A stretch of DNA of 64,000 nucleotides from an uncultured Gemmiger sp. Its GTDB lineage: Bacteria; Bacillota; Clostridia; Oscillospirales; Ruminococcaceae. The stretch spans positions 1 to 64,000 of the forward strand of contig CALXHQ010000011.1 of the NCBI GenBank assembly GCA_944388145.1, read 5' to 3'. Position 1 is the stretch's first letter. The number at the start of each line of letters is the position of its first letter. Shown here one piece after another: positions 24,760-40,579 of the stretch. The notes under the pieces were generated by a model, which searched no databases, was not told where the DNA came from, and saw only the letters and a list, made by a program, of their open reading frames with translations. A program made the translations under genes and the position numbers.

Positions 24760-24787
24760 ACCGCCCTCTCAGTGCACAAACAACAGC

Positions 24788-24821
24788 AAAACTCCCTGAG
24801 TCGACCGGCTCAGGGAGTTTT
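24788..24821. terminator. Bidirectional terminator between selenium island and ABC operon
   Basis: AAAACTCCCTGAG pairs with CTCAGGGAGTTTT around an 8-nt loop. The A and T runs on both sides let it serve the plus-strand island and the minus-strand permease gene ending at 24846. Confidence 0.9.
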
Positions 24822-24845
24822 GCTGTATGGGGGCAGGCGGTTGGT

Positions 24846-27254: not shown

Positions 27255-28030
27255 TTTCCGTCCCCCTCACCAAACACTGCCAGATACACATCCTCCAGGC
27301 CCTTGCCGGGGGCATAGGTTTCGATCAATTCTGGCACCGGGGCTGCGTCCACGACCTGCCCAGCGCGCAGCAGGATCACCTTGCTGGCAACGCTTTCCAC
27401 ATCGGACACCACATGGGTGGCCACCAGGATAATGCGGTCATGGGCCATCGAAGCCAGAAGCCGCCGGAGCCGCACCCGCTCCCTGGGGTCCAGGCCCGCG
27501 GTGGGCTCATCCAGAATTAATAGCCTGGGGTTTCCCAAAAGTGCTGACGCCAACAAAAGCCGCTGCTTCATGCCTCCGGAGTAGGCGGACAACCGCTTGT
27601 CCAGCTCATCCGCCAGATTGACGGCGGCCGCCACCCGGGCCACCTCATCCGGCACCGCCCTGCGGGGGATCTCCTTCAGCGCTGCCAGATAGGCCAGAAA
27701 CCGGCGGCCGGTGTAGCTGTCATACAGGCCCTGTTGCTGGGGCATATAGCCCAGCACCCGGCGGAACCGAATTCCCCTGGCCGGCACGCCGCACCAGAGT
27801 ACCGCGCCGGAATCGGGGGCCATTGTGCCGGTGATGATATGGATCAGGGTGGATTTGCCCGCGCCGTTCGGCCCCAGCAGACCGTACAGCCCCGGTCCCA
27901 GGGTCAGCGACACCCCATCCAGCGCCTTTTTAACCTTGGGTGCCATCCCACCGCGTTTGGGCAGGCGCAGCAGCGGCTGGGGCAGCAAATAGGTTTTGCG
28001 CAGATTGTCAAGTTTCAGCTCCGGTTGCAT
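27251..28030 (-). CDS. ABC transporter ATP-binding protein, ABC-2 exporter type
   Basis: The start at 28030 (MQPELKLDNLRKTY) has AAAGGAGCAATGCC upstream. The 259-residue ATPase has Walker A GPNGAGKSTLIHI, signature SGGMKQRLL, Walker B LLILDEPTAGLDP and switch His in VATHVVSDVE. The N-terminal insert LLPQPLLRLPKRGGMAPKVK is unusual. It follows the lipoprotein gene ending at 28083 by 52 nt and overlaps the permease gene, so lipoprotein, ATPase and permease form one operon. Confidence 0.92.
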   Translation of the reverse strand: MQPELKLDNLRKTYLLPQPLLRLPKRGGMAPKVKKALDGVSLTLGPGLYGLLGPNGAGKSTLIHIITGTMAPDSGAVLWCGVPARGIRFRRVLGYMPQQQGLYDSYTGRRFLAYLAALKEIPRRAVPDEVARVAAAVNLADELDKRLSAYSGGMKQRLLLASALLGNPRLLILDEPTAGLDPRERVRLRRLLASMAHDRIILVATHVVSDVESVASKVILLRAGQVVDAAPVPELIETYAPGKGLEDVYLAVFGEGDGK

Positions 28031-28082: not shown

Positions 28083-29429
28083 TCACAGCAGGGTGATCCA
28101 TGCAAAGTCTGCCGTGGAGTTCAGGTATTCCTCTTTTGTCATGAGCGCCAGTTTCTGCCCCAGCGCCGCCATCATCCCGCCGGGGTTCTGCTCTTCCTCC
28201 ACAGTGGCGGCTACCAGCAGGCGGTCCCCGGTTTGCGCGTAGATCTCGATGGGTACGCGGGTGGCATGATAGTAATTGGAGAGCGTCAGCTCCCGCATCT
28301 CACTGTTTCGGGTGTTGACCGCATAGCAGCTGTACAGCAGCTCAATGTCGCCGTTATCCAGCACGGTGTTGGAAGTCATCGCATTCAGGATGACCCAGTC
28401 ATCCACAAAGGCACGGATAAAAAGATCGTCCGGCCGGTCCACCGGGATGGTTTCCTTCAAATCAGTGATCAGGACACGGTTGTCCCCGGTGGCTGCATCG
28501 ATGCAGCCCAGCGTGATCTGCTGCTCATCCGGGCCGGCCTCCAAATAGTACCAGCCCTCTCCGTGGGGCTGCCCCTGTTTTTCGCCGTTTTGGGGCGGGA
28601 CAATGATGTGCGCCGCGCTGCCATCGAATGGGATCAGCCAAACGGCATCGGTGGGATCGTTGAGATCTGCGCCCGCTTCCACTGTCTTTACGACAAAGCC
28701 GCCGGTTGTAACCCCCTGAAAGAAAGCCCCCGCCATTTTGCCTTCCTCCACCGTCGAAGCAGCGTCGAACAAAGTGGTACGCACCCCGGTGGCGGTATCG
28801 ATCGCCTCCAGGCGGCGGGTGATGGCCGCGTTGTCCCCCTGATTGGATACACCGCTGATCATCATCACCAGCCATCCCGGCCGGTAAGCGGCGCCCGCCT
28901 CAAAGGTTTCGCCGGCGGATAATGTGCACAGGCGCTGCCGGTTGCTGCCATCCAGCTCTGCCCGCTCGAGGTATGCGCCATCCATGCCGTCGTTGTGAAC
29001 AAAAAAGAGGGCATCTTCACAGGCGACGGGCCAGATCTGCTGATCCCCCGCCGGGAACCAGGATGTGCAGCTTTCCCCGTTGTGGGGGCAATTGGCATTG
29101 GAGCACAGGTAGACCTGCTGCCGGGTGGCATAATCGATGTAGGTGGCATGGAAGGTGCCGTCCTCATGGGCGGCGACCTGGTAAAAGCCATCCGCCGTGC
29201 CGCTGCCATACACGGTAAGATCGCAGGAGAGCACCAGCTCATACGGCTGGCCGTTCAGGGCGGCATTGGTTTGCGGGGACGGCTGCGGGAAATCGGGGAG
29301 TTCCTGCCGGGCAGCAGACGATGACTGCGGCGCCGCCCCGCAGGCCGCCAGCAGGCTGACAGACAGCAGCATACATGCCAGCGTGCGGAGTACTTTGACA
29401 AAGCATCTTCCTTGGACTTTGGGCAACAT
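28083..29429 (-). CDS. Lipoprotein with C-x4-C-x-H-x4-C motif (paralog 1)
   Basis: The 448-residue protein has a signal peptide ending LLAAC (lipobox Cys30) and a Gln/Ser/Pro linker. The sequence DYATRQQVYLCSNANCPH follows, giving Cys109, Cys114, His116 and Cys121. The rest looks like a beta-propeller made of blades with ELDGSNRQRLCTL-type turns, and the C-terminus is TKEEYLNSTADFAW. It is the first gene of an operon with an ABC ATPase and permease. The Cys/His set could bind a metal or form disulfides outside the cell. No characterised homolog is recognised. Start at 29429 chosen for GGGGAAGG; other ATGs lie upstream. Confidence 0.85.
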   Translation of the reverse strand: MLPKVQGRCFVKVLRTLACMLLSVSLLAACGAAPQSSSAARQELPDFPQPSPQTNAALNGQPYELVLSCDLTVYGSGTADGFYQVAAHEDGTFHATYIDYATRQQVYLCSNANCPHNGESCTSWFPAGDQQIWPVACEDALFFVHNDGMDGAYLERAELDGSNRQRLCTLSAGETFEAGAAYRPGWLVMMISGVSNQGDNAAITRRLEAIDTATGVRTTLFDAASTVEEGKMAGAFFQGVTTGGFVVKTVEAGADLNDPTDAVWLIPFDGSAAHIIVPPQNGEKQGQPHGEGWYYLEAGPDEQQITLGCIDAATGDNRVLITDLKETIPVDRPDDLFIRAFVDDWVILNAMTSNTVLDNGDIELLYSCYAVNTRNSEMRELTLSNYYHATRVPIEIYAQTGDRLLVAATVEEEQNPGGMMAALGQKLALMTKEEYLNSTADFAWITLL

Positions 29430-29481
29430 GACCTTCCCCTGCCTTTCCCGCATGAAGTGACACTTTCGATGTCTTACCCAC

Positions 29482-29513
29482 ATGGTAGCAGGCGGTTGCA
29501 TCAAAGTTGTATC
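29482..29513 (-). promoter_or_regulatory. Shared direct-repeat promoter of paralog 1/ABC operon
   Basis: On the minus strand GATACAA (29507-29513) and GATGCAA (29496-29502) are 11 bp apart. They are followed after 8 nt by a -10 TACCAT (29482-29487). The same layout precedes four other genes in the region. Confidence 0.65.
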
Positions 29514-29528
29514 AGCTGTGGGGGCGGA

Positions 29529-30842
29529 TCATTGCACTCTCTGGATTGGCTGCAACTCGGGGTCTTGTGCCGCAAACTGCTGTTTTGGGATCAGGCTGTA
29601 CCCGTATACCTGATTTTGCAGGGTGACGGCGGTGCCGTCGCCTTTATGCAGCTCAGCATCCTCATGCCGAATCTCCGTCATCACAAGATAAGCGGTATCA
29701 TTTTCCGCCAGCACCGTGGCGCCCAACGGGTCTTTGCCATCTTCCTGTGTCAGGCATACATCTGAACGGGAAACCGCACCGGTCCCGGTGTCGACCAAAA
29801 TTTGATACCCGTGGTCCTGCTCTGCATCCCAGCAGGGAATGAAGAGGGTGTTGCCCACCAGGTAGGGGGTATCCACCTGCTGGAAGCTATTCCCCGCCAC
29901 TTCGGTCAGGGAGATGGTGGTTTGTACCTGCCCGTTCTCATCGCAAATGGCCACCTGGCGTTCGCCGTCGGGATAGTAATATAGCAGCGTCCCGCCTGCC
30001 ATGTGTGGTTCCGCGTACCGACCGTTGCTGGGGCAAAGATCAGCCAGCTCGCTCAAGGTGCCGGATTGAACATCCAGCGTTGCCAGTGTGTGCGTGGTGG
30101 CCCCCATGTCCCCCTCTGAATTTTCCCGGTTTGGGTCAATGCCGATTTGGTGGAGATAGAGCAGGCCGTCCCGGCAGCCGATGAGATTGTAGTAGTCGTT
30201 TGCGGGCAGGTTGGCAACCACCGCTGCCTCGCCCCCGTCCTCTGGTATTCGCAGTACTTTGGTACCATCAGATTCCTGCTGAAGCAGGTAAAGACATCCC
30301 TGGCCGCCAACGGCGTACATCAAAAGAGTGCTGCCATCATCGCAGGTATAGATCTGTGTCTGAGCACTGCCGTCCAGATTCATCCGGTAGACTGCGCCGG
30401 CAGCCAGAGCACCAAGGTCGCTGTTTTCCACGGAGCCGGAGCGGATAAAGTACAGGTGATCCGCATAGACAAACATACGGTAGTCGCCGACAATGGAATC
30501 CAGGTAGGCGGTGTCTGTTTCGTCGGAATGGTCGCTGTTGACCTGTGTGGATAGCGGAATATCCATACAGGTGGCGTAATCCACATAGCGGATCTGGCCG
30601 GTCAACGCATCAGACAGCCCGGGTTCCACGTAGTAATACCCCTCCGAAGTGCCGGCCCCCACGCTAAGGAGCCGGTCCGGGATCAGCATGGTCAACTGTT
30701 CACCGCCGGAGGGAGGGTTTCCCGCCGCGGGTGCCGCGGAAGGATCGGCGGACCCGCCCGCACCAGAACCCCCGCAGGCTGAGAGAAAGAGCGCCGCCGC
30801 CAGGATGGCTGACACCTGCATACCGGATCTTACTTGTTTCAT
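29529..30842 (-). CDS. Lipoprotein paralog 2, Cys motif lost
   Basis: The start at 30842 (MKQVRSGMQVSAIL) follows AGGAGTGATCTGT; the open frame continues upstream to 31067 only through a gene remnant. The 437-residue protein has lipobox SAC (Cys23), a Gly/Ser linker and the same propeller body. The motif region reads YVDYATCMDIPLSTQVNSDH, so the three Cys of the paralogs are Ser98, Ser103 and Asp110 while His105 stays. It is nearly identical to paralog 3 over the first 40 residues and diverged after. No ABC genes follow it. Confidence 0.83.
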   Translation of the reverse strand: MKQVRSGMQVSAILAAALFLSACGGSGAGGSADPSAAPAAGNPPSGGEQLTMLIPDRLLSVGAGTSEGYYYVEPGLSDALTGQIRYVDYATCMDIPLSTQVNSDHSDETDTAYLDSIVGDYRMFVYADHLYFIRSGSVENSDLGALAAGAVYRMNLDGSAQTQIYTCDDGSTLLMYAVGGQGCLYLLQQESDGTKVLRIPEDGGEAAVVANLPANDYYNLIGCRDGLLYLHQIGIDPNRENSEGDMGATTHTLATLDVQSGTLSELADLCPSNGRYAEPHMAGGTLLYYYPDGERQVAICDENGQVQTTISLTEVAGNSFQQVDTPYLVGNTLFIPCWDAEQDHGYQILVDTGTGAVSRSDVCLTQEDGKDPLGATVLAENDTAYLVMTEIRHEDAELHKGDGTAVTLQNQVYGYSLIPKQQFAAQDPELQPIQRVQ

Positions 30843-30972
30843 ACAGATCACTCCTGTTCCGCAATTTTGCCGCCGCGGCTTTCGGGTTTGTGCCGCAGTT
30901 GTTCTGGTTACAGGATAGCAGGTGCGTGTATCCAAGTTGTAACGCGGGCAGCCCCCGCGGGGTGTCTGGCGC
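30726..30972. repeat. 247-bp near-identical repeat, copy A
   Basis: This copy covers the promoter, leader and first 38-40 codons of paralog 2. It matches 32392-32640 at a constant offset of 1666 bp with only a few substitutions up to an indel near its outer edge. Confidence 0.9.
30912..30943 (-). promoter_or_regulatory. Shared direct-repeat promoter of paralog 2
   Basis: Minus-strand repeats GTTACAA (30937-30943) and GATACAC (30926-30932) lie 11 bp apart. They sit 8 nt upstream of a -10 TATCCT (30912-30917). Confidence 0.65.
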
Positions 30973-30975
30973 CAA

Positions 30976-31280
30976 TTCCGGTTGCACGGCATTGTTCCTT
31001 CCTTCTCACACAGCAAGGTACTCCATGCAAAGTCTGCCGTGGAGTTCAGGGATTCCTCTTTTCGCATACAGTGCCGGGACTTTTCCAGTAGCCGAATGTA
31101 GCATAACAGCCACCTGCCTTTCCCGAATACGGGAGCCTTTTTGGTGGTCCCGCATCCGTGGTGGCAAGCGGCTGTATCAAAGCACCGATATTGTTTTGTA
31201 CGGCAAACTGCGGGGCGAAAGGCTGCGCTGCTTCTGCAAAGCGGACATCAGGTTCATGGTGATTGCAGCAGCCGGACATG
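30976..31280 (-). pseudogene. Remnants of a lipoprotein-ATPase gene junction
   Basis: Bases 30978-31075 resemble 28013-28140, the junction of the paralog 1 C-terminus and ATPase start. ACGCATG-type start sequence is decayed (GGTTGCACGGC against GGTTGCATGGC), and the segment encoding LNSTADFAW is preserved at about 31020-31055. Bases about 31100-31220 resemble the leader of paralog 1 and the 3' end of paralog 2. No intact gene is present, so this is debris of an earlier copy of the unit. Confidence 0.7.
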
Positions 31281-31281
31281 C

Positions 31282-32508
31282 TTACATTCCGGTGATATAT
31301 TGGTAATTGGGCCGGGAATGCAAATAATCGTCCCGGGAGATGAGGGCATAGACCGGGCGCAGGCTGGTGATATCCCCACCGCTTTGTTGCATATTCCAAG
31401 CAGCCCGCACCAGAAGATTGTCGCCGGACTGTGCCAGCACCAGAATGACATTCTGCTGGTCCTTGTAGTACAACGTCATGGGAATGGTTTCGCCAGTGGA
31501 GGGGTTGACATGGTAGTCTGTGATCCGATTGGTTTCCGCATCCAGAAGCTGCACCCGGTACCAGCCGTCCCACAGCCCGAAAACAATAATCTGTGCGTTT
31601 GGTATTCCCGCCTGCGCCGCCAGCGTGTCCGCCTGCCAAGTGAGGATTGTGCCGTCGCTCAGGTCGGTGAAAGTTGCCTGCTGCCCTGTGGTTTGGACAA
31701 GCACATCGCCGAACAGGGTCGCCCCCTGCTGCGAATCAAAGGGCTGCTCGACCAGCGGCTGCTCCATCTCGCCGGTAGCGGTATCATACAACTCCACCGC
31801 ATAGCGGGTCTCGCCGGTGGAGAGCTCTTCATAGGCCAGCGACAGGCCAAGGCGTGTACCGAATCCGGTCAACAGCTGGGCATCTGAATTTTCCGGAAAT
31901 GTGTATAGAAGATCCACCCGCCCATCCTGCAGGCTGATGCGAATCAACTGCATCACCGGCGTGCTATTCTGTACGGTACCTGCCAAGGCATACAAGTTTT
32001 GGGCGTCGGTGTAAATTTCCGGCCGCAGTGTGACAGTCGCATCCAACTGGCATAACGTCTGAGGGTTACTGCCGTCCGGCTGGCAAAGCATCACCCGGGC
32101 TGGAGCGTCTTCCGTTGGTGCAGTCTGGATGATCGCCAGCTGATCCTCCAGCAGAGCAAGCACCGGAACAGCCATATTCTCGATCAGTGCATAGGCAGTG
32201 CAGCTGCTGTCCGAATGGGCACATTCCGGACGGCTACAAAGTGGCATCTGCTGCCGTGAGGCATAGTCGATATAAGTAACGATAGCTGCATTGCCCCACT
32301 CCTCCGTGGTATAGTAACCGTCTGCATTGCCGGCACTGACCAGCTGCAGTTCCTTCGTTGCGGCCGATTGCTCTGCGGAAGATTCTGCTGTCGCGGGTGC
32401 CGCGGAAGGATCGGCGGACCCGCCCGCACCAGAACCCCCGCAGGCTGAGAGAAAGAGCGCCGCCGCCAGGATGGCTGACACCTGCATACCGGATCTTACT
32501 TGTTTCAT
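31282..32508 (-). CDS. Lipoprotein with C-x4-C-x-H-x4-C motif (paralog 3)
   Basis: The start at 32508 matches that of paralog 2 (same leader and AGGAG site). The 408-residue protein has lipobox Cys23, linker and DYASRQQMPLCSRPECAHSD with Cys91, Cys96, His98 and Cys103, then propeller-like repeats such as CQPDGSNPQTLCQLD. The C-terminus ISRDDYLHSRPNYQYITG matches the family end pattern. It stands alone, with its own shared-type promoter. Confidence 0.85.
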   Translation of the reverse strand: MKQVRSGMQVSAILAAALFLSACGGSGAGGSADPSAAPATAESSAEQSAATKELQLVSAGNADGYYTTEEWGNAAIVTYIDYASRQQMPLCSRPECAHSDSSCTAYALIENMAVPVLALLEDQLAIIQTAPTEDAPARVMLCQPDGSNPQTLCQLDATVTLRPEIYTDAQNLYALAGTVQNSTPVMQLIRISLQDGRVDLLYTFPENSDAQLLTGFGTRLGLSLAYEELSTGETRYAVELYDTATGEMEQPLVEQPFDSQQGATLFGDVLVQTTGQQATFTDLSDGTILTWQADTLAAQAGIPNAQIIVFGLWDGWYRVQLLDAETNRITDYHVNPSTGETIPMTLYYKDQQNVILVLAQSGDNLLVRAAWNMQQSGGDITSLRPVYALISRDDYLHSRPNYQYITGM

Positions 32509-32640
32509 ACAGATCACTCCTGTTCCACAATTTTGCCGCCGCGGCTTTCGGGTTTATGCCGCAGTTGTTCTGGTTACAGGATAGCAGGCGCGTGTATCCA
32601 AGTTGTAACGCGGGCACCCCCCCGCGGGGGTGTCCGGCGC
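32392..32640. repeat. 247-bp near-identical repeat, copy B
   Basis: This copy covers the promoter, leader and first codons of paralog 3 and ends at the paralog 4 stop codon. It differs from copy A at only a few positions plus extra C and G residues in the outer GC-rich hairpin. Confidence 0.9.
32578..32609 (-). promoter_or_regulatory. Shared direct-repeat promoter of paralog 3
   Basis: Minus-strand repeats GTTACAA (32603-32609) and GATACAC (32592-32598) lie 11 bp apart. They sit 8 nt upstream of a -10 TATCCT (32578-32583), identical to copy A. Confidence 0.65.
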
Positions 32641-33888
32641 TCAGTTGATATTGGTGAAGTTTGCCGTGCCGGCCATGCAATCATCGAAGGGAATTGCCTG
32701 GTAGAAGGTCCGCTCCCAGCTGGTTTGTGTGGTGCCGTTGTATGCGTTGTTTTCCAAAATCAGGATGTCTTCCTCCGGCCCTGCCGCGCCCACGACCTGC
32801 AGCGGCCGCCCGGTGACGGCGTCGGTGAAGGGAAACTCCACCACCTGGCCGGTCTGGCAGTTGATGGCAAACATCTTGACCTGAAGGGAAGAATCTTCCT
32901 CCACACCGGTGACGCTGTCGACAAACAGGGTATCGTGGTAATACCCCTCAACGTAGATGCCGGCGGTGCCCTGCACGGACGGGAAGCAGTCCGGCAGATG
33001 GATCTCCTGTGTGCCGTCAGTTGCGGTCAGGGTAACCTGTTCCCCGTCGGGTTCCAGCTGGAACCACCAGGGGCCGCTGGCATATCCGACCATCTGCTCC
33101 TGCTCGTACTCGGTGCGGGGCGTCCAGGCCCCAGTGGCCGGCGCATAGGTGGAGACTTTATGGATTCCGTCCGTTGTGATTTCCTTGATCCAAAGTTCGT
33201 CCCCGTCTGTGCCGAGGACAAAGAGATACCCCTCGTTTGCGCTGTAAAGGGTGGTCAGCTCCCCGGTGTTCACGTCCAGGCTGATCAGCTCATTGCTGTA
33301 CGCACCTTCCGGCGAGACGGTTGACCGCGTCAGATACAGGCGCGCACCGTCGCTGACCACACCGGCCCCCATCGTCTGGCCGCTGCCAAAGGTGTAAAGC
33401 GTATGCCGGTCGCCGCCATCGAGGTTGCCCACCTCAATCCTGGCGGGATACTCGTTTTGGCCATCGTTGTAATCGATGAAGAACAGATAGAGATGTTCCT
33501 CGTCCACACCAATGGAGGGGGCAAAGCCGGTGGAAGTGGCAAAGGCGGTGCAGCTGTCGTCCGTGTGCTGGCAATTGGGGCTGGCGCACAGGTAGGTGGC
33601 CTGGCCGGTGGCCAAATCCCAATAGTGGATCATGGAGCGCCCGTCCTCGATCTCAACCCAGTACATTCCCTGGTCGGTACAGGCCTGTGCCCCGGTGTCA
33701 TCCGGGGAAAGGGAAAGCATCTTCAGTTCCCCGGCGGGGGCGTTGTCCCCGGCGGGCGGGGCGGAAGGGGCGGCATTCTCTGACGTTGCGGGCGCTCCCG
33801 CCTGCTGTGCAGAGCACGAAGCAAGTACAGCTGCGGCCATCATTACAGATAGTATTTGCAGAGGGAAAATGTTTGACTTTTTATTCAT
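32641..33888 (-). CDS. Lipoprotein with C-x4-C-x-H-x4-C motif (paralog 4)
   Basis: The 415-residue protein starts behind TTTAGGAGATTTTATCAT. It has a signal peptide with lipobox LASC (Cys25), a Pro/Ala linker and YWDLATGQATYLCASPNCQH, giving Cys101, Cys106, His108 and Cys113. Propeller turns such as NLDGGDRHTLYTF follow. It lacks the GATACAA promoter element of its paralogs and instead follows a secreted-protein gene, with a long hairpin in the gap. Its C-terminus also differs from the others. Confidence 0.85.
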   Translation of the reverse strand: MNKKSNIFPLQILSVMMAAAVLASCSAQQAGAPATSENAAPSAPPAGDNAPAGELKMLSLSPDDTGAQACTDQGMYWVEIEDGRSMIHYWDLATGQATYLCASPNCQHTDDSCTAFATSTGFAPSIGVDEEHLYLFFIDYNDGQNEYPARIEVGNLDGGDRHTLYTFGSGQTMGAGVVSDGARLYLTRSTVSPEGAYSNELISLDVNTGELTTLYSANEGYLFVLGTDGDELWIKEITTDGIHKVSTYAPATGAWTPRTEYEQEQMVGYASGPWWFQLEPDGEQVTLTATDGTQEIHLPDCFPSVQGTAGIYVEGYYHDTLFVDSVTGVEEDSSLQVKMFAINCQTGQVVEFPFTDAVTGRPLQVVGAAGPEEDILILENNAYNGTTQTSWERTFYQAIPFDDCMAGTANFTNIN

Positions 33889-33920
33889 ATGATAAAATCT
33901 CCTAAATGTGTCAATGATGT

Positions 33921-33969
33921 GCCAAATGCCCTACAGTAGCTGTCTTTTTCTACTGGTAGGGCATTTGGC
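33921..33969. repeat. Long 20-bp inverted repeat in the paralog 4 leader
   Basis: Arms 33921-33939 and 33950-33969 are complementary over about 19 pairs with one bulged base around a 10-nt loop. There is no U tract on the minus strand, so it is not a normal terminator of the upstream gene ending at 34016. It may be an RNA stability or processing stem. Confidence 0.75.
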
Positions 33970-34015
33970 TAAGTGTTGAATCCTGTCAATCTATATGCAA
34001 AGGGAGAGATTCATT

Positions 34016-34567
34016 TTACCGGGCTTTCCAAAGTGAAGAAGTGGAAGATCCAACTCCTGTTGTAAAATTGATAATTGCGGAATTGCCGCCGCCGGTAGCA
34101 TTCAGATACTGTCCATCATAATTTGCAAGCCGGAAACGATAACCACTCGCATAGCTTCCTGTGCACATAAGATTCGAATCAAAATAGGCAGTGCTTCCAG
34201 ACCAGAGTATTGCATTACCTGTGTCTTTATCACGGTTAATCATCAGGGTGTATTTCGAACCGTTCGGAGGAGCAGTCTGTACACGAAGCGTCAAATAGCC
34301 ACCACTGCTGGTGTATCCCTTGAAGCGCTGGTCACTGCTGCTAGTGCGAGCCCAGATACGAAGCGGCGTACCTTTTTGCACCGGATTTCCATTGATCGGA
34401 TACGCATTGAGATAGCCACAGCCTGTTTGGCCACCGTAGCTCTGATAGAAGTATTCTTTGCCTGCAAGGCCATTTGTATAGTCGGCCGCAAACGTCGGCA
34501 CGGCCATACCAACGGCCATCACCATAGCCAGCAACAGGGTAAGCAGACGTTTCTTTGCTTTTGTCAT
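34016..34567 (-). CDS. Small secreted protein, unknown function
   Basis: The start at 34567 has AAAGGAGGACATC upstream. The 183-residue protein has a clear signal peptide (residues 1-29, cleavage after TFA) and a Gly/Ser/Tyr-rich body. NRDKDTGNAILWSGS and YRFRLANYDGQYLNATGGG recall lectin-like RICIN/beta-trefoil or SH3-like wall proteins, but no family is secure. It has a consensus promoter and is divergent from a PadR regulator. Base composition is lower in GC than its neighbours. Confidence 0.8.
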   Translation of the reverse strand: MTKAKKRLLTLLLAMVMAVGMAVPTFAADYTNGLAGKEYFYQSYGGQTGCGYLNAYPINGNPVQKGTPLRIWARTSSSDQRFKGYTSSGGYLTLRVQTAPPNGSKYTLMINRDKDTGNAILWSGSTAYFDSNLMCTGSYASGYRFRLANYDGQYLNATGGGNSAIINFTTGVGSSTSSLWKAR

Positions 34568-34705
34568 TTTGATGTCCTCCTTTTCAAAGGTTTTGTTTGG
34601 GTTTGGGTTGGGTTTCGATCCGTACTGCAAAGCGCCCGCGCGCTGGCGCTTGTACCGTAATCATTCGGCCGCTTCGGCGGCCCCTTTTCGTGCTATCTTG
34701 GTTAG

Positions 34706-34734
34706 AGTATACGTCATTGGACAAATTTTGTCAA
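34706..34734 (-). promoter_or_regulatory. Consensus promoter of the secreted-protein gene
   Basis: Minus-strand -35 TTGACA (34729-34734) and -10 TATACT (34706-34711) are 17 bases apart, near-perfect sigma-A. The leader of about 130 nt contains a GGCCGCC hairpin. Confidence 0.85.
34720..34732. promoter_or_regulatory. Palindrome overlapping the -35 (candidate PadR operator)
   Basis: GACAAATTTTGTC is a perfect palindrome around its central base and lies on the -35 of the minus-strand promoter, in the gap shared with the PadR gene. Operator function is inference. Confidence 0.4.
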
Positions 34735-34743
34735 TAAAAAGCA

Positions 34744-34772
34744 TTGAAAATTTACAACTACAATGATAAACT
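34744..34772 (+). promoter_or_regulatory. Promoter of the PadR operon
   Basis: -35 TTGAAA (34744-34749) and -10 TAAACT (34767-34772) are 17 bases apart. The start would be about 36 nt ahead of the PadR ATG. Confidence 0.6.
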
Positions 34773-34814
34773 AAATACAGTCGAACCAAACCCATCGCAG
34801 ATAAAGGCAGAACC

Positions 34815-35204
34815 ATGGCAAATACCAACTCTTCCCGTGCGCCCCGCAGCGGCACCGCCGCCGGTATGCGGGAGTCGATCAAAAAGGCCGTCACCGAGAT
34901 GATGGTCCTGTTTTTGCTGCGCCAAAAGCCGATGTATACCTACGAGATGTCACAGGAGCTTACGCGGCTGACGGGCGGCGTTTATACCTTCAATACGCTG
35001 TATCTTGCCATCTATCGCCTGCAGGAGCACGGCTACATCACCGAGGCCGGCAAGCAGGAGGCGGGCAACCGCCTCAGGGTCTACTTCAAGCTGACGGACG
35101 CCGGGCAGCGGTATCTGGACGAGCTTCTGCCCACTTACCGTGAGATGATCGGCGCGCTGGATTCCCTGCTGGCGCAGGATGGCAAGCTGTACAAGGAGGA
35201 ATGA
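34815..35204 (+). CDS. PadR-family transcriptional regulator
   Basis: The 129-residue protein has the PadR winged helix (about residues 25-105): MMVLFLLRQKPMYTYEMSQEL, split by the recognition segment TFNTLYLAIYRLQEHGYI, and the wing RLRVYFKLTDAGQRYLDE. An N-terminal Ser/Arg extension precedes it. It lies in one operon with the next gene, whose ATG overlaps its stop. PadR proteins usually repress neighbouring membrane or resistance genes in response to a small ligand. Confidence 0.9.
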   Translation: MANTNSSRAPRSGTAAGMRESIKKAVTEMMVLFLLRQKPMYTYEMSQELTRLTGGVYTFNTLYLAIYRLQEHGYITEAGKQEAGNRLRVYFKLTDAGQRYLDELLPTYREMIGALDSLLAQDGKLYKEE

Positions 35205-35617
35205 CCATGTATGAAAGTGAAGTGAAGGATTACTGCCGGCGCGCCGGCAGTCTGCTTGCCTGCAGCCGGGCACAGCGGCAGCAATTTGACCGCCTGACCC
35301 GCCAAAGCGTGCAGGAGTACCTGCAGGAGGTGCCCGGCGCGCCCTGGCCGGAGGTGGAGCGGACGCTGGGCAGCCCTGAGGAGGCCGCCAGTGCGTTTAT
35401 GGAATCCCTTCCGCCAGACACTGCGGAGCATTGGGCCGGCGCGCACAAGTGCCGCCTGCGGCTGGCAGCCGCCGCCGTCTGCCTGGTGTTTGCGCTGCTG
35501 GTAGGTGTGATTGCATTCTTTGTGATAACCAAAGGCGTGGCGATCATCGAAAAGGAAACCACCATCTATTATTTAGATGACAATTCTTCTATGCCGCCGT
35601 TGCCGGATTTGGAATAA
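35201..35617 (+). CDS. DUF1700-like membrane protein partner of PadR
   Basis: The 138-residue protein overlaps the PadR stop by 4 nt; ATG 35207 is an alternative start. Residues 1-80 are a soluble helical region with LGSPEEAASAFMESLP, as in DUF1700/HAAS-type proteins, then one membrane helix (about 88-112) and a short acidic outside tail. PadR genes are very often paired with such proteins, which may act as signal partners. Family placement is by pattern only. Confidence 0.75.
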   Translation: MTMYESEVKDYCRRAGSLLACSRAQRQQFDRLTRQSVQEYLQEVPGAPWPEVERTLGSPEEAASAFMESLPPDTAEHWAGAHKCRLRLAAAAVCLVFALLVGVIAFFVITKGVAIIEKETTIYYLDDNSSMPPLPDLE

Positions 35618-35638
35618 CTTATAAGGAAGACGTGTTTT

Positions 35639-36079
35639 ATGAAAAAGTTCTTTGCAGCTTGCTTTTCCCTCTTGCTGTTGATCGTGGTTGCGGTTCCCTG
35701 CTATGCCGCGCCCCAGCGCGAAATCGTATCAGAGACCACAACGGCATTAGCCAATGGGATAGAATGTACAACGACAATTTATTGGGAAGCTTCTTCCACT
35801 CGTGCATCAACCAGGAAGGGAGGAATCGACCAAAGTTACAGCTATGACGGTAAAACAATTGCAATAGCGCGGCTGACCGCCACTTTCACCTACAACGGCA
35901 GTACCGCAACGGCAATCAGCGCCAGCGGTAGTCATTCGACTGCCTCCGGCTGGTCGTACAGCGGCCAATCCACCTGGTGCAGCGGCGCAACCGCCCATCT
36001 GACCGCCACGGTCTCCGGCCCGGTCAGCTTCCCGGTCAATCTCTCGCTGACCTGTTCGCCCAGCGGAGTTTTGTCCTGA
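35639..36079 (+). CDS. Small secreted protein, unknown function
   Basis: The 146-residue protein starts with a signal peptide MKKFFAACFSLLLLIVVAV cleaved near CYA, then a Thr/Ser-rich body with ATFTYNGSTATAISASGSH and two to three Cys. No family is recognised; the pattern suggests a beta-sandwich. It follows the PadR operon by 21 nt behind AAGGAAG and ends before a terminator, so it is the third gene of that operon. Confidence 0.75.
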   Translation: MKKFFAACFSLLLLIVVAVPCYAAPQREIVSETTTALANGIECTTTIYWEASSTRASTRKGGIDQSYSYDGKTIAIARLTATFTYNGSTATAISASGSHSTASGWSYSGQSTWCSGATAHLTATVSGPVSFPVNLSLTCSPSGVLS

Positions 36080-36107
36080 CCGTATTTCTTCCCCAATCGA
36101 CACACCC

Positions 36108-36144
36108 GGCGCACCGCCTTATCCCTGGCGGTGCGCCGTTTTTT
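36108..36144 (+). terminator. Terminator of the PadR/secreted-protein operon
   Basis: GGCGCACCGCC (36108-36118) pairs with GGCGGTGCGCC (36127-36137), followed by TTTTTT. Confidence 0.92.
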
Positions 36145-36168
36145 CCTTTTCCAAGCCGCCGCCTCTGG

Positions 36169-37542
36169 TCAAAAGGGCAGGCCCGGGTCGCCGCAGATGG
36201 TGTCCACGCCGTAATAAAAGGCCAGCGCCACATTGCGCTCATTTTCAGGATTTTGCATCAGGTCAGACAGGGCGTCGCCCCAAAACGGGCTGAATCGGGT
36301 CCGAGCGGCGGGCAGGATGGGGACTGTCAGATCAGTCTCGCCCGCGGCGCGGCTTTGCTCGATCCGGGCAGCGCGGGCGTCGGTGTTCCGGCGCAGCGCC
36401 GCCAGCTCGGCAACACCGGCGGGCAGCTGCAATGCCAGGGCCAGGGCCAGCACCCCGCAGGCCAGGGCAGGCCAGCGCAGCCGCCGGACCAGACGGTTGG
36501 CGCATACCAGCACCGCCGCGGCCAAAAAGGCCACGGTGCCCAGCATACTGCGCAGCGGATAAGCAGGCGAGGCAGTCATAGCCACATGGCAGGCCGCCGC
36601 ACCGCCCAACAGCCACAGCGCGGGCGGCAGCTGCCGGGGCTGCCGGATGGCTAACTGCGCCGCCAGCAGAACGGCCAGCAGGATCAGCCACCAAGCCTGT
36701 TCCCACAGAGCCAAGGTGTACTGTACCAACCGGGACGGCAGCAGCGCCAGGCCCAGCCCGGCCTGCCCATACCCCGCTGCACGGCGGTAGTTGCCGGGAG
36801 CGGCCATCAGCAGCGCAAAGCCCAGCCATTGCCCCGCCGCGCCCGCCGCCAGCAGACGGGGCATTGGGCGATGGCGGAAATGTATCTGCACCAGGCGGGC
36901 GGTGCAGAGCAGGCAGGCGGCTGCACTCTGGTTTTCCATGCTCCAGCCGGAAAGCAGTCCCAGCAGAAACCACCATCCCGCACCGCGGCGCAGCTGGGGC
37001 ATCCAACCCGGATGGATGTAGGGTCCCAAAAACCACATTGTCGCCGTCATGGTCCACAGGTAGTTCACCGATCCGGTCTGCCAGAGAAAGTTTTGCCCGA
37101 GGGCGGGAGTGCCCACCCAGAGCAGCAGTGCCGCCCCCGCCGCTGTCCACGCCGATGCCGCCGGGCTTTGGGGGCGGGCAAGCTTGGTCAAAGCGGCCGC
37201 CAGCAGCAAAAAAAGCGCTGCATTGCACAGGTCAAACAGCCAGCCCGGCAACAGGGTGGAGATCATCACGATGCCCAATACCGGCAGCCGCCCGCTATGC
37301 ACTGCGCAGACCGCCTTGAGCGAGGACAGCAGGTCCGCCATACTTCGCAGCTTTCCCGCCGGGAAAAGCACCCCGTCCGGCCGGACCGTCAGGCGGCAGG
37401 CAAAAAAGTAATCGTCTGCCACCATGGGTGTCAGCAGGTTCAGAATCAGCATGCACACCCCCGCTCCGGCCAGCACAGCCAGCCAGGGCCGACGAGGCGG
37501 GGCAGGCAGCGCCCTGTAACTTGTTTGTTGGTGCAGTTTCAT
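36169..37542 (-). CDS. DUF6056 family multi-pass membrane protein (glycosyltransferase-like)
   Basis: The start at 37542 follows GAGGGGGATCGT. The 457-residue protein has about ten membrane segments. It carries an outside DDY motif in MVADDYFFACRL, SGRLPVLG, and GQNFLWQTGSVNYLWTM, which mark the DUF6056 family related in layout to GT-C glycosyltransferases. It may add sugars to surface molecules, but no activity is established. The promoter contains one copy of the GATACAA element seen at the lipoproteins. Confidence 0.82.
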   Translation of the reverse strand: MKLHQQTSYRALPAPPRRPWLAVLAGAGVCMLILNLLTPMVADDYFFACRLTVRPDGVLFPAGKLRSMADLLSSLKAVCAVHSGRLPVLGIVMISTLLPGWLFDLCNAALFLLLAAALTKLARPQSPAASAWTAAGAALLLWVGTPALGQNFLWQTGSVNYLWTMTATMWFLGPYIHPGWMPQLRRGAGWWFLLGLLSGWSMENQSAAACLLCTARLVQIHFRHRPMPRLLAAGAAGQWLGFALLMAAPGNYRRAAGYGQAGLGLALLPSRLVQYTLALWEQAWWLILLAVLLAAQLAIRQPRQLPPALWLLGGAAACHVAMTASPAYPLRSMLGTVAFLAAAVLVCANRLVRRLRWPALACGVLALALALQLPAGVAELAALRRNTDARAARIEQSRAAGETDLTVPILPAARTRFSPFWGDALSDLMQNPENERNVALAFYYGVDTICGDPGLPF

Positions 37543-37587
37543 GACGATCCCCCTCTTGTCAAACGGATGAAACCGGCTTTTGCTTTT

Positions 37588-37608
37588 ATGATACCGCCGG
37601 ATTGTATC
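37588..37608 (-). promoter_or_regulatory. Shared-type promoter of the DUF6056 gene
   Basis: Minus-strand GATACAA (37602-37608) lies 8 nt upstream of a -10 TATCAT (37588-37593), the same spacing as at the lipoprotein promoters. A clear second box at 11-bp distance is missing. Confidence 0.55.
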
Positions 37609-37643
37609 CAAACCGTTTCAGTTTGTGTCGAGGGAGGTGCTGT

Positions 37644-39014
37644 TTATGGCAGAAGCTGGACGGGCCGCAGGGCGTCCGCGTCGGAATCCAGATACGCCTG
37701 CTGATTGATCAGCGACCACTCGGCCTGCTGAGGCCCCGCCCCTGGGGTGGCATGATTGCCGGTCACCAACAGTACATCGGCTGCGTTCTTTCCCAACATG
37801 GTGCACAACAGCAAATCGGCGCCGGACTGTTGGCGGATAGTCAGCTCTCGCCGTTCCCCCGTCTGCACCTGAACGGCATAGCAGGAATCGGTGACCCTCC
37901 AGGAGGTACCCGCCTCATTTTGCTGGCTTTGCCCCTGGGAGAGCAGAAACCAGTCCCCCATCTGGCCATCCAGCCAGAAAGAGGTGGCGCCCACGTCCGG
38001 CAGGGTGGAAAGCTCCGTGGCCAGGCCGTTGGGCAGGGTGATGCGCGTCAGTGTGCGGGTATCCAGATCGAGATAAAACAGCCCCGCCTCCGTGAGAAGG
38101 TCGTAGACCCGCCCGCTGTAAGTGACCGTACCGACGGGTTGGGAACTGCCCACCGGGACCACGGTGCAGGTATACTGTGCAGAGCGTTCGATCTCCTCAT
38201 GGATGTCCGCCCAGTCCTGGCCGGGAAAGTCGGCCTCGGATTTGGTTTGGATTTTTTGCCGCAAAACGCAGCAGCCATTTTCGGTAACCCCCAGGAAGGC
38301 CGGTTCGGTCCCGTTCAGCTGGACCGGACAGGTATAAAAATCGGTGCGTGCACCGGTATCCAGGTCGATCGACACCAGTTTGAAGGTGGCGCCGATCCCC
38401 TGCTGGCCGTCGGAGCTCACCTCATTCAGAGCACAAATCAGCTGACTGCCATTGGCGGCAAAAGTCCGACTCAAACGCTCGTTGGCGGCAAATTCCACCA
38501 AAGTATGGCGGTCACTGCCGTCCAGGTTGGCGGCCTCGATGTGAGGAATGGCACGTTCCGGGGCTTCGGCCCCGTAGGTAATATGCACCAGCAGCAGGTG
38601 TTCCCCGCTGACCAGCGGAAGGTAGCCGCCCTCATCAGGGTCAAGCCAGGCGGTACAGTTTTCCTGATCATGGGTGCAGTTTGGGTCAGCGCACAGGTAA
38701 ATTTCCCGGGCAGTCTGGTAGTCAACATAGAGGATTTTGTTACCGGTGGCCTCGTCATAACGAATCTCATAAAAGCCCTGGTCGCCGCCGCACCCCCACA
38801 GAGAGGCATCCTCCCTGGTTAAGGTGACGAAGCCTGTTGCCGCGGGCTCAGCCGGGGTCTGTGTTGGCAGCGGTGCAGCGTCCTGCTCCGATGCAGGAGG
38901 GGCTTCGTTTGGCGGCGTGCACCCCGTCAGCAGCGCAGCGGCCAACAAAGCGGCCATCACAGAGCAGCGGGGCTTTTTCCGGCGATATGTTTGCCGCGGT
39001 TTTAACAGTTTCAT
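37644..39014 (-). CDS. Lipoprotein with C-x4-C-x-H-x4-C motif (paralog 5)
   Basis: The start at 39014 (MKLLKPRQTYRRKK) follows AAAGGTGG. The 456-residue protein has a basic N-region, lipobox LLTGC (Cys32), a Pro/Glu linker and DYQTAREIYLCADPNCTHDQ with Cys108, Cys113, His115 and Cys120. Propeller-like turns such as ANLDGSDRHTLVEF follow, ending in INQQAYLDSDADAL. Its promoter has four GATACAA-type repeats, the most of the group, and a leader of about 190 nt. The DUF6056 gene follows on the same strand. Confidence 0.85.
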   Translation of the reverse strand: MKLLKPRQTYRRKKPRCSVMAALLAAALLTGCTPPNEAPPASEQDAAPLPTQTPAEPAATGFVTLTREDASLWGCGGDQGFYEIRYDEATGNKILYVDYQTAREIYLCADPNCTHDQENCTAWLDPDEGGYLPLVSGEHLLLVHITYGAEAPERAIPHIEAANLDGSDRHTLVEFAANERLSRTFAANGSQLICALNEVSSDGQQGIGATFKLVSIDLDTGARTDFYTCPVQLNGTEPAFLGVTENGCCVLRQKIQTKSEADFPGQDWADIHEEIERSAQYTCTVVPVGSSQPVGTVTYSGRVYDLLTEAGLFYLDLDTRTLTRITLPNGLATELSTLPDVGATSFWLDGQMGDWFLLSQGQSQQNEAGTSWRVTDSCYAVQVQTGERRELTIRQQSGADLLLCTMLGKNAADVLLVTGNHATPGAGPQQAEWSLINQQAYLDSDADALRPVQLLP

Positions 39015-39206
39015 TATAAAACGACCACCTTTCTTTGACGCGGACGGTATAAGAATTTGCAGCCGCAAGGCTGAGAGGCGTGCTCCTTTGCGGAATGCAG
39101 AGCCTGTTTCCGCGGCGGATGCTGCTCCTTCGCCAACATTTTGCGGCTTTCATTTCCTAATAAAAGTCTCGCTTTTATCCTGGGTCTGCCTTTCGGCTCC
39201 AACCCA

Positions 39207-39260
39207 ATCATAACAGGTGGTTGTATCCTGCTTGTACCGTGCTTGTATAAAAGTTGTATC
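39207..39260 (-). promoter_or_regulatory. Promoter with four 11-bp direct repeats (paralog 5)
   Basis: Read on the plus strand, TTGTATC, TTGTACC, TTGTATA and TTGTATC start at 39221, 39232, 39243 and 39254, exactly 11 bp apart. The -10 TATGAT is at 39207-39212 on the minus strand, 8 nt from the first box. Such phasing is typical for head-to-tail binding of OmpR/PhoB-type regulators. Confidence 0.7.
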
Positions 39261-39299
39261 GCCTGTGCAAAAGGCGGCTGCGGATACCCTGCTGCCAGG

Positions 39300-40224
39300 T
39301 CATGAGGCGCCGGTTTCCTCCTCCAAAGGCAGCCAGTTGGGGGCACCGTCCAGGTAATCCTGCTGTTCGATCAGCGCAAGATCCGGTATTTCAACTGTGG
39401 TCGCATAGTGGGTGCCATCTTGCCCGGTGAGCATTGTTTCCCGGCTGCGAATGCCCCGCTGTACCAGGAAACGGCTGCCCACGGAGGCCAACGGCTCGCA
39501 GGGGACGGTGATGTTCCCCTGCCGAAAGCTCAGGCGAACGGGACGGGCGGTGCCATCCGCCAGATGGATCAGATAGGCCTGCCAGTCCGTTCTATGGCGT
39601 GCAATGTCCTGGACGGTGACAAACAATTCTCCATTGCAGGGGGTACCGGCAATCAGGCTGTTGCCGCCATAGTAAGGAATGTCCGTCTGGAATTCCGTCT
39701 CCTGTCCGGTAATCAGATCCCGATGGATCAAATGGCAGCTGTTCCCTTTCCCGGGGGCGAACAGCCACAGCGTATAGCCGTCCGGCACAGCGGTGGGGGC
39801 GGCGGGTCCGTAGTCGTTGGCATACTGATACAATTCAGCGGCGGTCCCGTCCGTCGGGTTGCAGGACAGCCAGGTGTCTGTACCGTCCCCATGGCACAGC
39901 ACCAGCAGCTTGCCTGCCCCGGCGCCCATCAGCCAGGCGGTGTCCGGCAGAGTAATCAGCGTGCGGACATGACCGGCGGCAAGCTCGATGCAGCGCAGTT
40001 CGCGACAAGTGTCGCCCATTTGGCGGCCCAGTACCCGCACAGTCAGGTAGAGGGCTTGGCCATCCCCCGCCACCGCACCGGTGAGGTTCTCGCCGGGGGC
40101 AGCAGTCCAAACCTGACGCCGGTTGCTGCCGTCCGGGGACATTTGCCATAGCGTATCCCGCTGGCCGTCGCTGGAAACGGCAAACAGGCTGTCACCTGCA
40201 CCGGATGCAAAGACGGACAGTGCG
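39300..40224 (-). pseudogene. Lipoprotein paralog 6, 5'-deleted
   Basis: From about codon LSVFASGAGDSLFAV the sequence follows the family propeller (MSPDGSNRRQVW matches ELDGSNRQRL) and ends with the typical IEQQDYLDGAPNW. Signal peptide, lipobox and Cys/His motif are absent. Directly upstream are two GATACAA boxes (40226-40243), but the -10 and start region are missing, so about 100 N-terminal codons and the core promoter were deleted. The frame stays open upstream only through the tRNA gene and is not a real extension. Confidence 0.75.
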
Positions 40225-40243: not shown

Positions 40244-40461
40244 GGGTGAGGCATCCGCCGGGGCTGCTCTCAGACAGTCGGCCCCTGCGCCATGTAAGTG
40301 GGTCTTTGCCGGCGCCTTTCCCTGCCCGGGAGACACTTGCTTTCCGCAAACAGTTACCGGCAACGCAGAGCACACAGCGTGAGCGGTATTGCCAGTTGTA
40401 CCAGACAACGGCCTTTTGTCCCCCCCTCGAAGTCCTGTTCAAAGAGCGGATAAATAAACAG

Positions 40462-40503: not shown

Positions 40504-40579
40504 TGGTGGACCTGGAGGGATTCGAACCCTTGACCTCTCGGATGCGAACCGAACGCTCTCCCAACTGAGCTACAGGCCC
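40504..40579 (-). tRNA. tRNA-Ala (anticodon CGC)
   Basis: The 76-nt minus-strand gene folds as a full cloverleaf: acceptor GGGCCTG with CAGGTCC, D-arm GCTC/GAGC, anticodon loop TTCGCAT giving CGC, T-arm with TTCGAAT, and an encoded CCA. The G3-U70 pair, the alanine identity element, is present. It has its own promoter and terminator, so it is a single-gene unit. Confidence 0.95.

Follow-up and report, generated by a model that had tools for sequence, protein, structure and literature searches.

What are several divergent surface lipoproteins, marked by one shared Cys/His motif, doing in front of a single transporter? The question is raised by 64,000 nucleotides of an uncultured Gemmiger sp. 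(contig CALXHQ010000011.1, positions 1 to 64,000; this whole stretch is hereafter the window), in which a set of lipoprotein paralogs, W1 to W6, lies beside an ATP-binding cassette (ABC) transporter and the gene for a small secreted protein, S. Across the window and its relatives we observed a kept gene order, operon-like spacing, co-occurrence of lipoproteins and transporter, conservation of the motif and unequal divergence of the parts, and obtained a propeller model of the lipoprotein. By analogy with known systems, we tentatively suggest a polymorphic secreted-protein/lipoprotein/ABC module that would work like lantibiotic or lactococcin-972 immunity and would include a structural metal site, a reading to which we give a probability of roughly 0.43. 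More broadly, the locus has the look of a module, so far undescribed, with which gut Clostridia would protect themselves or sense events at the envelope.

Propeller lipoproteins with a shared Cys/His loop

The lipoprotein genes of the window are as follows.

28083 to 29399, minus strand: W1, propeller lipoprotein, motif at 29064-29105
29529 to 30842, minus strand: W2, propeller lipoprotein, with S-x4-S-x-H-x4-D in place of the motif
31282 to 32508, minus strand: W3, propeller lipoprotein, motif at 32197-32238
32641 to 33888, minus strand: W4, propeller lipoprotein, motif at 33547-33588
37644 to 39014, minus strand: W5, propeller lipoprotein, motif at 38652-38693, not part of the ABC operon; the copy modelled with AlphaFold2
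39300 to about 40370, minus strand: W6, decayed lipoprotein copy without a signal peptide, degenerate motif at 40329-40367

W1 to W5 each have, by sequence, the signal peptide and lipobox Cys of a bacterial lipoprotein; this Cys is invariant in a 17-sequence family alignment, and the lipobox is missing from W6 and from one paralog elsewhere in the same genome (L011). A regular-expression search through six frames of the whole window returned four matches to C-x4-C-x-H-x4-C, every one on the minus strand and inside these paralogs. The original prediction, made from the letters of the window, had proposed identical Cys/His spacing in four paralogs that otherwise differ at most residues, and both points hold: identity to W1 is 18-26% among the paralogs, and local BLAST identities within W1 to W5 are mostly 24-38%. 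Its tally of five intact copies and one deleted copy is right for the five, whereas the sixth, W6, is a decayed copy with a motif remnant (C-x4-C-x-R-x4-S at 40329-40367), one Cys and the His being gone. W6 adjoins tRNA-Ala (40504-40579) and is recovered by a motif-free propeller profile with E 2.5e-25. W2 has a complete signal peptide and propeller, yet reads S, S, H, D at the motif positions; since the matching copy of Gemmiger sp. An87 (L023:12869) has these same four residues, the loss in W2 is an inherited variant and not a sequencing slip.

The AlphaFold2 model of W5 is a beta-propeller with a predicted local distance difference test score (pLDDT) of 82. All four motif residues fall within 13 residues of one confident loop inside the propeller (pLDDT blocks 93 and 90). 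The model and the structure search thus agree with the propeller-like domain that had been predicted; the motif had been placed between the lipid anchor and this domain, and here the model disagrees, putting it inside the propeller, 76 residues past the lipid Cys in W5. The second-ranked Foldseek match is a clostridial seven-bladed protein, 3s25 (TMq 0.39), which we take to be a DUF5050 protein. DUF5050 propellers have the fold in common with the window lipoproteins, and we know of no Cys3-His loop in them; membership in DUF5050 (PF16472) was rejected, W2 reaching 24.1 bits against a cut-off of 27 and W1 and W3 to W6 giving no match, and DUF5050 is not among the Pfam matches of 17-member and 10-member family sets. 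XusB (9hqk), a Bacteroides surface lipoprotein bound to ferrichrome, stands at rank 50 with 6% identity, belongs to a Gram-negative surface, and is equalled or outscored by many propellers. Kinship with low-density lipoprotein (LDL) receptors was likewise rejected, the matches in the PDB stemming from a short 'NLDGSDRR' blade repeat. None of the lipoproteins scanned passed a Pfam or NCBIfam cut-off, and among the papers listed by literature searches none was recognisably about the family.

Distribution of the family and conservation of the motif

The genome from which the window comes (2.73 Mb, 98.8% complete) holds 13 family matches at E<=1e-3, in keeping with the expanded family originally proposed. 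Six long members outside the window (L007-L012) carry C-x4-C-x-H-x4-C, and another, L032:11147, has Gln for His; among 10 motif-bearing paralogs of this genome the invariant alignment columns are L107, C108, C113, H115, C120, L140, D165 and G221. Matches in the named collection came from 9 loci, including ones in Gemmiger formicilis, Gemmiger sp. An87 and Fournierella massiliensis. A 24-sequence N-terminal profile detected the family in 29 of the 197 genomes scanned in the order, in 13 of 291 at class level and in at least 3 of 398 phylum-level genomes; a ten-sequence profile found it in 17 of 61 genomes of the bacterial family and in at least 3 of 299 phylum-level genomes, where two matches in one genome span the signal-peptide end only. 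The genome of the window is included in the counts for order, class and family and in that of the 398 phylum-level genomes, and both phylum figures are lower bounds since these scans scored part of the candidates only. Some genomes hold ten or more copies. Viral contigs yielded no relative of the lipoprotein or of the permease, the latter query being a single sequence and so sensitive to close relatives only.

We pooled the window with 88 loci, giving 89 sequences, 85 of which hold 163 members; L025, 96% identical to part of L024, was left out, and L022 and L030 (98% identical) were both kept, so that one operon is counted twice. Lack of conservation in wider homologs had been named at the outset as grounds for abandoning the prediction; all four residues are in fact kept in 153 of the 163 members (147 with C, C, H and C in place, 6 with a later last Cys). 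The other 10 comprise 7 that lost all three Cys, 2 that lost the His only and one 138-residue frame that ends inside the motif. The spacing proved less strict than had been supposed: the gap from His to last Cys is 4 in 113 of the 153 and ranges from 2 to 12 in the remainder, and one further frame, L105:2797, has a shifted His. The C-x4-C-x-H part was fixed by the regular expression and so was not free to vary in these counts. A motif-free propeller profile, run against the 89 sequences, recovered 156 of the 163 members and 7 other open reading frames (ORFs), namely W6, three fragments, two motif-less ORFs of L045 and L105:2797. The profile used for collecting the loci contains the motif and therefore favours motif-bearing members, and the motif-free profile was also trained on such members.

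Apart from the cut frame and the decayed W6, no sequence among the 163 members and W6 has lost just one or two Cys. Three Cys that are lost together or never are what one joint site would be expected to show, an expectation from which neither a metal nor its identity follows. Considering the sequences together with the model, we regard the loop as most likely a structural metal site, in which a metal, most likely zinc, would pin the propeller loop. The spacing differs from those of iron-sulfur (Fe-S) CDGSH and zinc-knuckle motifs. Three Cys and one His at near-fixed spacing could also suggest a disulfide or other redox centre, or an Fe-S cluster, for electron transfer or thiol sensing. However, a disulfide alone would free one Cys to drift, and no member of the 163 with a complete motif region has lost one or two; nor is a redox partner evident among the 25 recurrent neighbour clusters listed, and we consider a redox role quite improbable.

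Linkage to an ABC transporter

The other parts of the presumed operon are these.

34706 to 34734, minus strand: promoter-like site TTGACA-17-TATACT, 11 of 12 matches
34016 to 34567, minus strand: S, small secreted protein of 183 residues with a Sec signal peptide and no lipobox, perhaps ricin-B/beta-trefoil-like
27251 to 28030, minus strand: ABC ATPase (PF00005, E 1.1e-27, 97.7 bits)
24846 to 27254, minus strand: double ABC-2-like permease of 802 residues, overlapping the ATPase stop by 4 nucleotides
24783 to 24826, minus strand: terminator-like hairpin of 18 pairs, directly 3' of the permease

From the sequence, S, W4, W3, W2, W1, ATPase and permease look like one operon. Terminator-like matches on the minus strand inside the stretch from S to the permease have at most 10 pairs. 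Promoter-like sites number 8 in the region against 5.7 expected in shuffles; two of them have 11 of 12 matches, the other of the two belonging to a tRNA. W1, as copy 1, had been assigned to an operon with the ATPase and the double permease, and the gene link stands, except that it spans S and W4 to W1 rather than W1 alone. Neither the S gene at the head of the operon nor the two-component and Agr genes of relatives had been part of that prediction.

Hydropathy divides the permease into 10 segments, and places the large non-membrane stretches behind segments 1 and 6 (residues 35-205 and 471-585, approximately). It scores 21.4 bits against PF12730, whose cut-off is 27, so that the ABC-2 assignment is below threshold, whereas the ATPase passes PF00005. 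At three relatives (L047, L059 and L104) two separate permease genes are found.

The link recurs well outside the genome of the window. Defining a run as same-strand genes in steps within 1.2 kb, at loci fetched for their lipoprotein matches, we counted 101 lipoprotein runs including that of the window: 45 have both ATPase and permease, 6 a permease only, 2 an ATPase only and 48 neither. The order lipoprotein, ATPase, permease is kept in 37 of the 45 joint runs, and a single run may hold up to seven lipoproteins for one pump. In a search from the permease instead, which is the fairer test, the 61 genomes of the bacterial family gave 17 permease genes from 18 match pieces, two of these being one gene. 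A lipoprotein lies in the same run for 13 of the 17, and at L066 the end of a propeller gene stands at the contig start; by genome, 12 of 13 permease bearers have the lipoprotein. The window ATPase was also used to search six genomes that carry lipoproteins: a lipoprotein match lies no more than 3.6 kb from 17 of the 18 closest homologs, compared with 1 of 62 more distant ones, that one being a copy cut by a contig end. The Fisher p of 3e-15 is descriptive, since the choice of genomes, rank limit and distance followed inspection of the matches. The proposed tie between lipoproteins and an ABC transporter is thereby well supported.

This linkage bears on the notion that the lipoproteins are stand-alone surface adhesins or lectins whose genes have a tendency, and nothing more, to lie close to ABC and regulatory genes. 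About half of the lipoprotein runs have no ABC genes, and the S of the window is itself lectin-like, both of which suit such proteins. Mere proximity would hardly account for a lipoprotein beside 13 of 17 permease genes, for the split between near and distant ATPases or for the order kept in most joint runs, and we regard this as the least probable of the explanations weighed here.

Two neighbours of the array lie outside the presumed operon. At 34815-36079 on the plus strand, a PadR regulator (PF03551), a 138-residue protein and a 146-residue secreted-looking protein without a family match form a unit that closes with a 12-pair terminator-like hairpin (36107-36138). The 146-residue last protein of this unit may be another S-like protein. 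A DUF6056 membrane protein (PF19528, E 2.8e-82) is encoded on the minus strand at 36169-37611, directly downstream of W5. Elsewhere, each of the four lipoproteins of L058:6027-16951 has a protein of 457-496 residues after it; a related protein, L113:8330, is solute-binding-protein-like by eye.

A conserved pump behind a changing front

Nine related operons were compared in 36 pairs. The best lipoprotein pair has a median identity of 29%, as against 76% for ATPase and 64% for permease, and lipoprotein identity lies below permease identity in 28 of the 28 pairs that have both permeases. S aligns over just 10-130 residues between operons, with a median of 37%. The contrast is sharpest between L026 (Fournierella) and L048 (G323). 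Their DNA is 92.7% identical over a stretch that begins 17 nucleotides ahead of the ATPase and runs beyond the permease. For the S and lipoprotein genes in front of it blastn finds no match, the lipoproteins sharing 24% identity, and still further upstream the flanks are alike once more, at 91-95% over about 0.4 kb apiece. This is the pattern that exchange of an S-lipoprotein cassette ahead of a fixed pump would leave. Judged on these sequences, the lipoprotein appears to have been swapped together with S ahead of a conserved pump.

The array of the window shows recombination as well. W2 and W3 have a leader in common over 255 nucleotides at 94% (30711-30965 and 32377-32631) while their mature parts differ, the proteins being 38% identical by BLAST, and upstream of W2 there is a further copy of the 3' end of a W1-like gene (28084-28142 and 31009-31067).

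The same divergence speaks to metal or small-molecule handling, in which the Cys3-His site would bind a metal moved by the ABC transporter and the lipoprotein would be metallochaperone-like, much as NosL works with NosDFY. That the site is the most conserved feature of these proteins and stands beside a recurrent ABC transporter fits this idea. On the other hand, the propeller varies strongly while the pump stays the same; up to seven lipoproteins per pump, together with 7 of 163 members that have no motif Cys at all, would be odd for one metal; and the ATPase and permease resemble ABC-2 exporters, the permease below the Pfam cut-off. We therefore hold metal handling to be improbable.

Two further comparisons between loci deserve mention. 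L024 (Fournierella massiliensis) and L025 (Gemmiger sp. An87) share 8.8 kb at 96.4% identity, starting just before the lipoprotein gene, and have no blastn match upstream of that start, as at a recent transfer or an insertion boundary. L022 (CALVUV010000143.1, 'uncultured Bacilli bacterium') is 98.3% identical over 5.5 kb to a contig (C5) of the genome of the window, and from this sequence match its bin label is probably wrong.

Small secreted proteins and regulators

An ORF of 75-215 residues with a signal peptide lies just upstream of 34 of 156 lipoproteins and of 12 of 537 control genes, an enrichment with an odds ratio of 12 (p 2e-14). At L137, six S-like ORFs alternate with seven lipoproteins ahead of one ATPase-permease pair. 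With four dubious matches removed for clustering only, the remaining 30 S proteins form 15 sequence groups; S itself is diverse, as far as sequence tells. A profile of 7 S proteins matched lectins in the PDB (best E 5.4e-4). The window S stays below the cut-off of RicinB_lectin_2 (13.4 bits against 25.6, E 0.13), which makes its likeness to ricin-B lectins no more than a lead; a ricin-type beta-trefoil protein, judged by eye, occurs near three loci (L036, L043 and L050). Pfam and NCBIfam both hold models of lactococcin 972, to which 8 distinct S proteins (Pfam, E<=1) and 9 S proteins plus window positions 35639-36079 (NCBIfam) gave no match, these scans covering a minority of the 30 S proteins. 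Identification of S as a known bacteriocin was rejected, no S protein scanned matching above any Pfam or NCBIfam cut-off; the S of L135 gave a weak match to NF053514, a JUQZ/BLB8 bacteriocin model, with E 3.4e-4 and 20.8 bits where the cut-off is 40.

For the wider neighbourhood, ORFs lying up to 5 kb from a lipoprotein, ATPase or permease gene were clustered by BLAST, with Pfam names for the regulator and amidase clusters taken from one representative each. OmpR-type response regulators occur at 27 loci, with 29 genes on the same strand and 4 on the other; the HAMP/HisKA kinases of 17 loci are all on the same strand (21 of 21). AgrC-like kinases are present at 9 loci and AgrB-like proteins at 9 loci. 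The order response regulator, kinase, lipoprotein, ATPase, permease is found at L052, L100 and L103, and the order response regulator, kinase, X, lipoprotein, with no ABC genes, at L029, L037, L044 and L050. At L057, L067 and L135 a gene for 238-248 residues, AgrC, AgrB and a small protein precede lipoprotein, ATPase and permease; the 238-residue gene of L067 encodes a LytTR response regulator.

Such neighbours are what envelope-stress or antimicrobial-peptide resistance would also bring together. Here no ligand would be made by the cell itself: the lipoproteins would detect or sequester foreign peptides, a two-component system would induce the pump as in Bce- or Cpr-like systems, and the S proteins would be decoys or cell-wall proteins. 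Response regulators and kinases on the strand of the lipoproteins, with or without ABC genes, speak for this, as do a MurNAc-L-alanine amidase-like protein that recurs at 4 loci and the many lipoproteins, the majority, that have no S gene. Against it stand the enrichment of S upstream of lipoproteins over control genes, the repeated S-lipoprotein pairs of L137 and the common boundary at which S and lipoprotein similarity end in L026 and L048. We think resistance to foreign peptides unlikely, while counting it the strongest of the rival explanations.

Weighing a possible self-protection module

Self-protection is the most economical role for the module, by analogy with LanI/LanFEG and lactococcin-972 operons, and it fits an exchangeable front ahead of a fixed pump. 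In the polymorphic module that we favour, the lipoproteins would be the variable, surface-exposed part and would serve one dedicated ABC-2-like transporter, with S and a two-component or Agr-type regulator at some loci. The propeller face would bind a cognate ligand at the cell surface, be it the cell's own S, a competitor's S or another envelope-active molecule; the transporter would then move or free the ligand, or the ligand's lipid-linked target, and the kinase and regulator pair would turn the module on. The Cys3-His loop may have been conserved because it is required for folding or for docking onto the permease that the lipoproteins share, even as the binding face changes.

Several observations weigh against this. 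By the rule used, 122 of 156 lipoproteins have no S-like ORF upstream, 4 of the 34 S matches were judged wrong by eye, and the similarity of S proteins tracks that of their lipoproteins at a Spearman coefficient of only 0.23 (417 non-independent pairs). The S of the window is lectin-like and not a known bacteriocin, and 8 distinct S proteins scanned gave no Pfam match above cut-off. The S proteins of L026 and L048 share one loose sequence group, so that very fast divergence is an alternative to a swap. The Agr-type genes are of mixed orientation (AgrC 6 same and 3 opposite, AgrB 4 same and 5 opposite). The 48 of 101 runs with neither ATPase nor permease, 7 of them near the end of the fetched stretch, also count here, as do 3 of 17 permease genes without an adjoining lipoprotein: L063, in a genome of the same genus (G352, 72% identical), L064 and L065; these three lone transporters lowered our confidence slightly. 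The structure model of the permease, built from 4 sequences, has a pLDDT of 37. As to the metal site, the profile that gathered the loci contains the motif, and the loci lack phylogenetic independence; the site is, on sequence, not essential everywhere, W2 and its An87 counterpart having intact frames without it; 2 of 163 members have another residue, or none, in place of the His, and W6 has lost one Cys and the His; and the lipoproteins hold 0-13 further Cys, which makes disulfides possible.

A bolder form of the proposal is a polymorphic conflict system of gut Clostridia, not described before, in which exchangeable cassettes of a small secreted effector and a zinc-pinned propeller lipoprotein would stand before a constant ABC transporter powering immunity, the extra lipoproteins being a library against the effectors of neighbours. 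We consider this version doubtful.

The lipoproteins and the permease fall below curated family cut-offs in the scans made, and yet the lipoproteins occur in about one in seven of the sampled genomes of the order. If the self-protection module is real, a widespread and rapidly exchanging self-recognition or defence module would be exposed in gut commensals; one Cys3-His motif and one ATPase group would give a handle for finding it, and it would become testable which secreted proteins commensals deploy against one another. Even if envelope sensing is all that these proteins do, many 'hypothetical' surface lipoproteins would gain a partner and a context.

Comparison with known systems

Passages of PMC11796350 describe lactococcin 972/streptococcin B operons as a small Sec-secreted beta protein with genes of presumed immunity and transport function behind it, put the pneumococcal streptococcin case under peptide-pheromone control, and point out that an immunity function of the two genes downstream in lactococcin-972-type operons is without experimental proof. 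The likeness to the module proposed here lies in a secreted small protein ahead of presumed immunity and transport genes; the differences are the extra lipoprotein array and S proteins that, where scanned, stay below every Pfam and NCBIfam cut-off. The JUQZ-1 bacteriocin is treated in a part of PMC11747845.

With BceAB/NsrFP and Cpr-type systems the module would have in common an ABC transporter with a two-component system and sometimes a lipoprotein, as these are outlined in passages of PMC5786555. The same passages give BceB ten helices and one domain between helices 7 and 8. BceAB-type membership was rejected, as the large stretches of the window permease, located by simple hydropathy, follow the first helix of each half and do not lie between helices 7 and 8.

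In lantibiotic clusters, LanI, LanFEG and LanRK bring a lipoprotein, an ABC transporter and a two-component system together, and the analogy with the present loci is one of gene arrangement (PMC5786555, in part). There, LanI lowers the ligand concentration that reaches the membrane and LanFEG effluxes the ligand (passages of PMC5786555). Membership of the ATPase in LanFEG was rejected, with 123.1 bits on TIGR03740 against a cut-off of 309.75. In contrast to LanI and LanFEG, the lipoprotein here is a predicted propeller with a Cys3-His loop, often present in several copies per pump, and the permease of the window is a single double protein of 802 residues with large non-membrane stretches.

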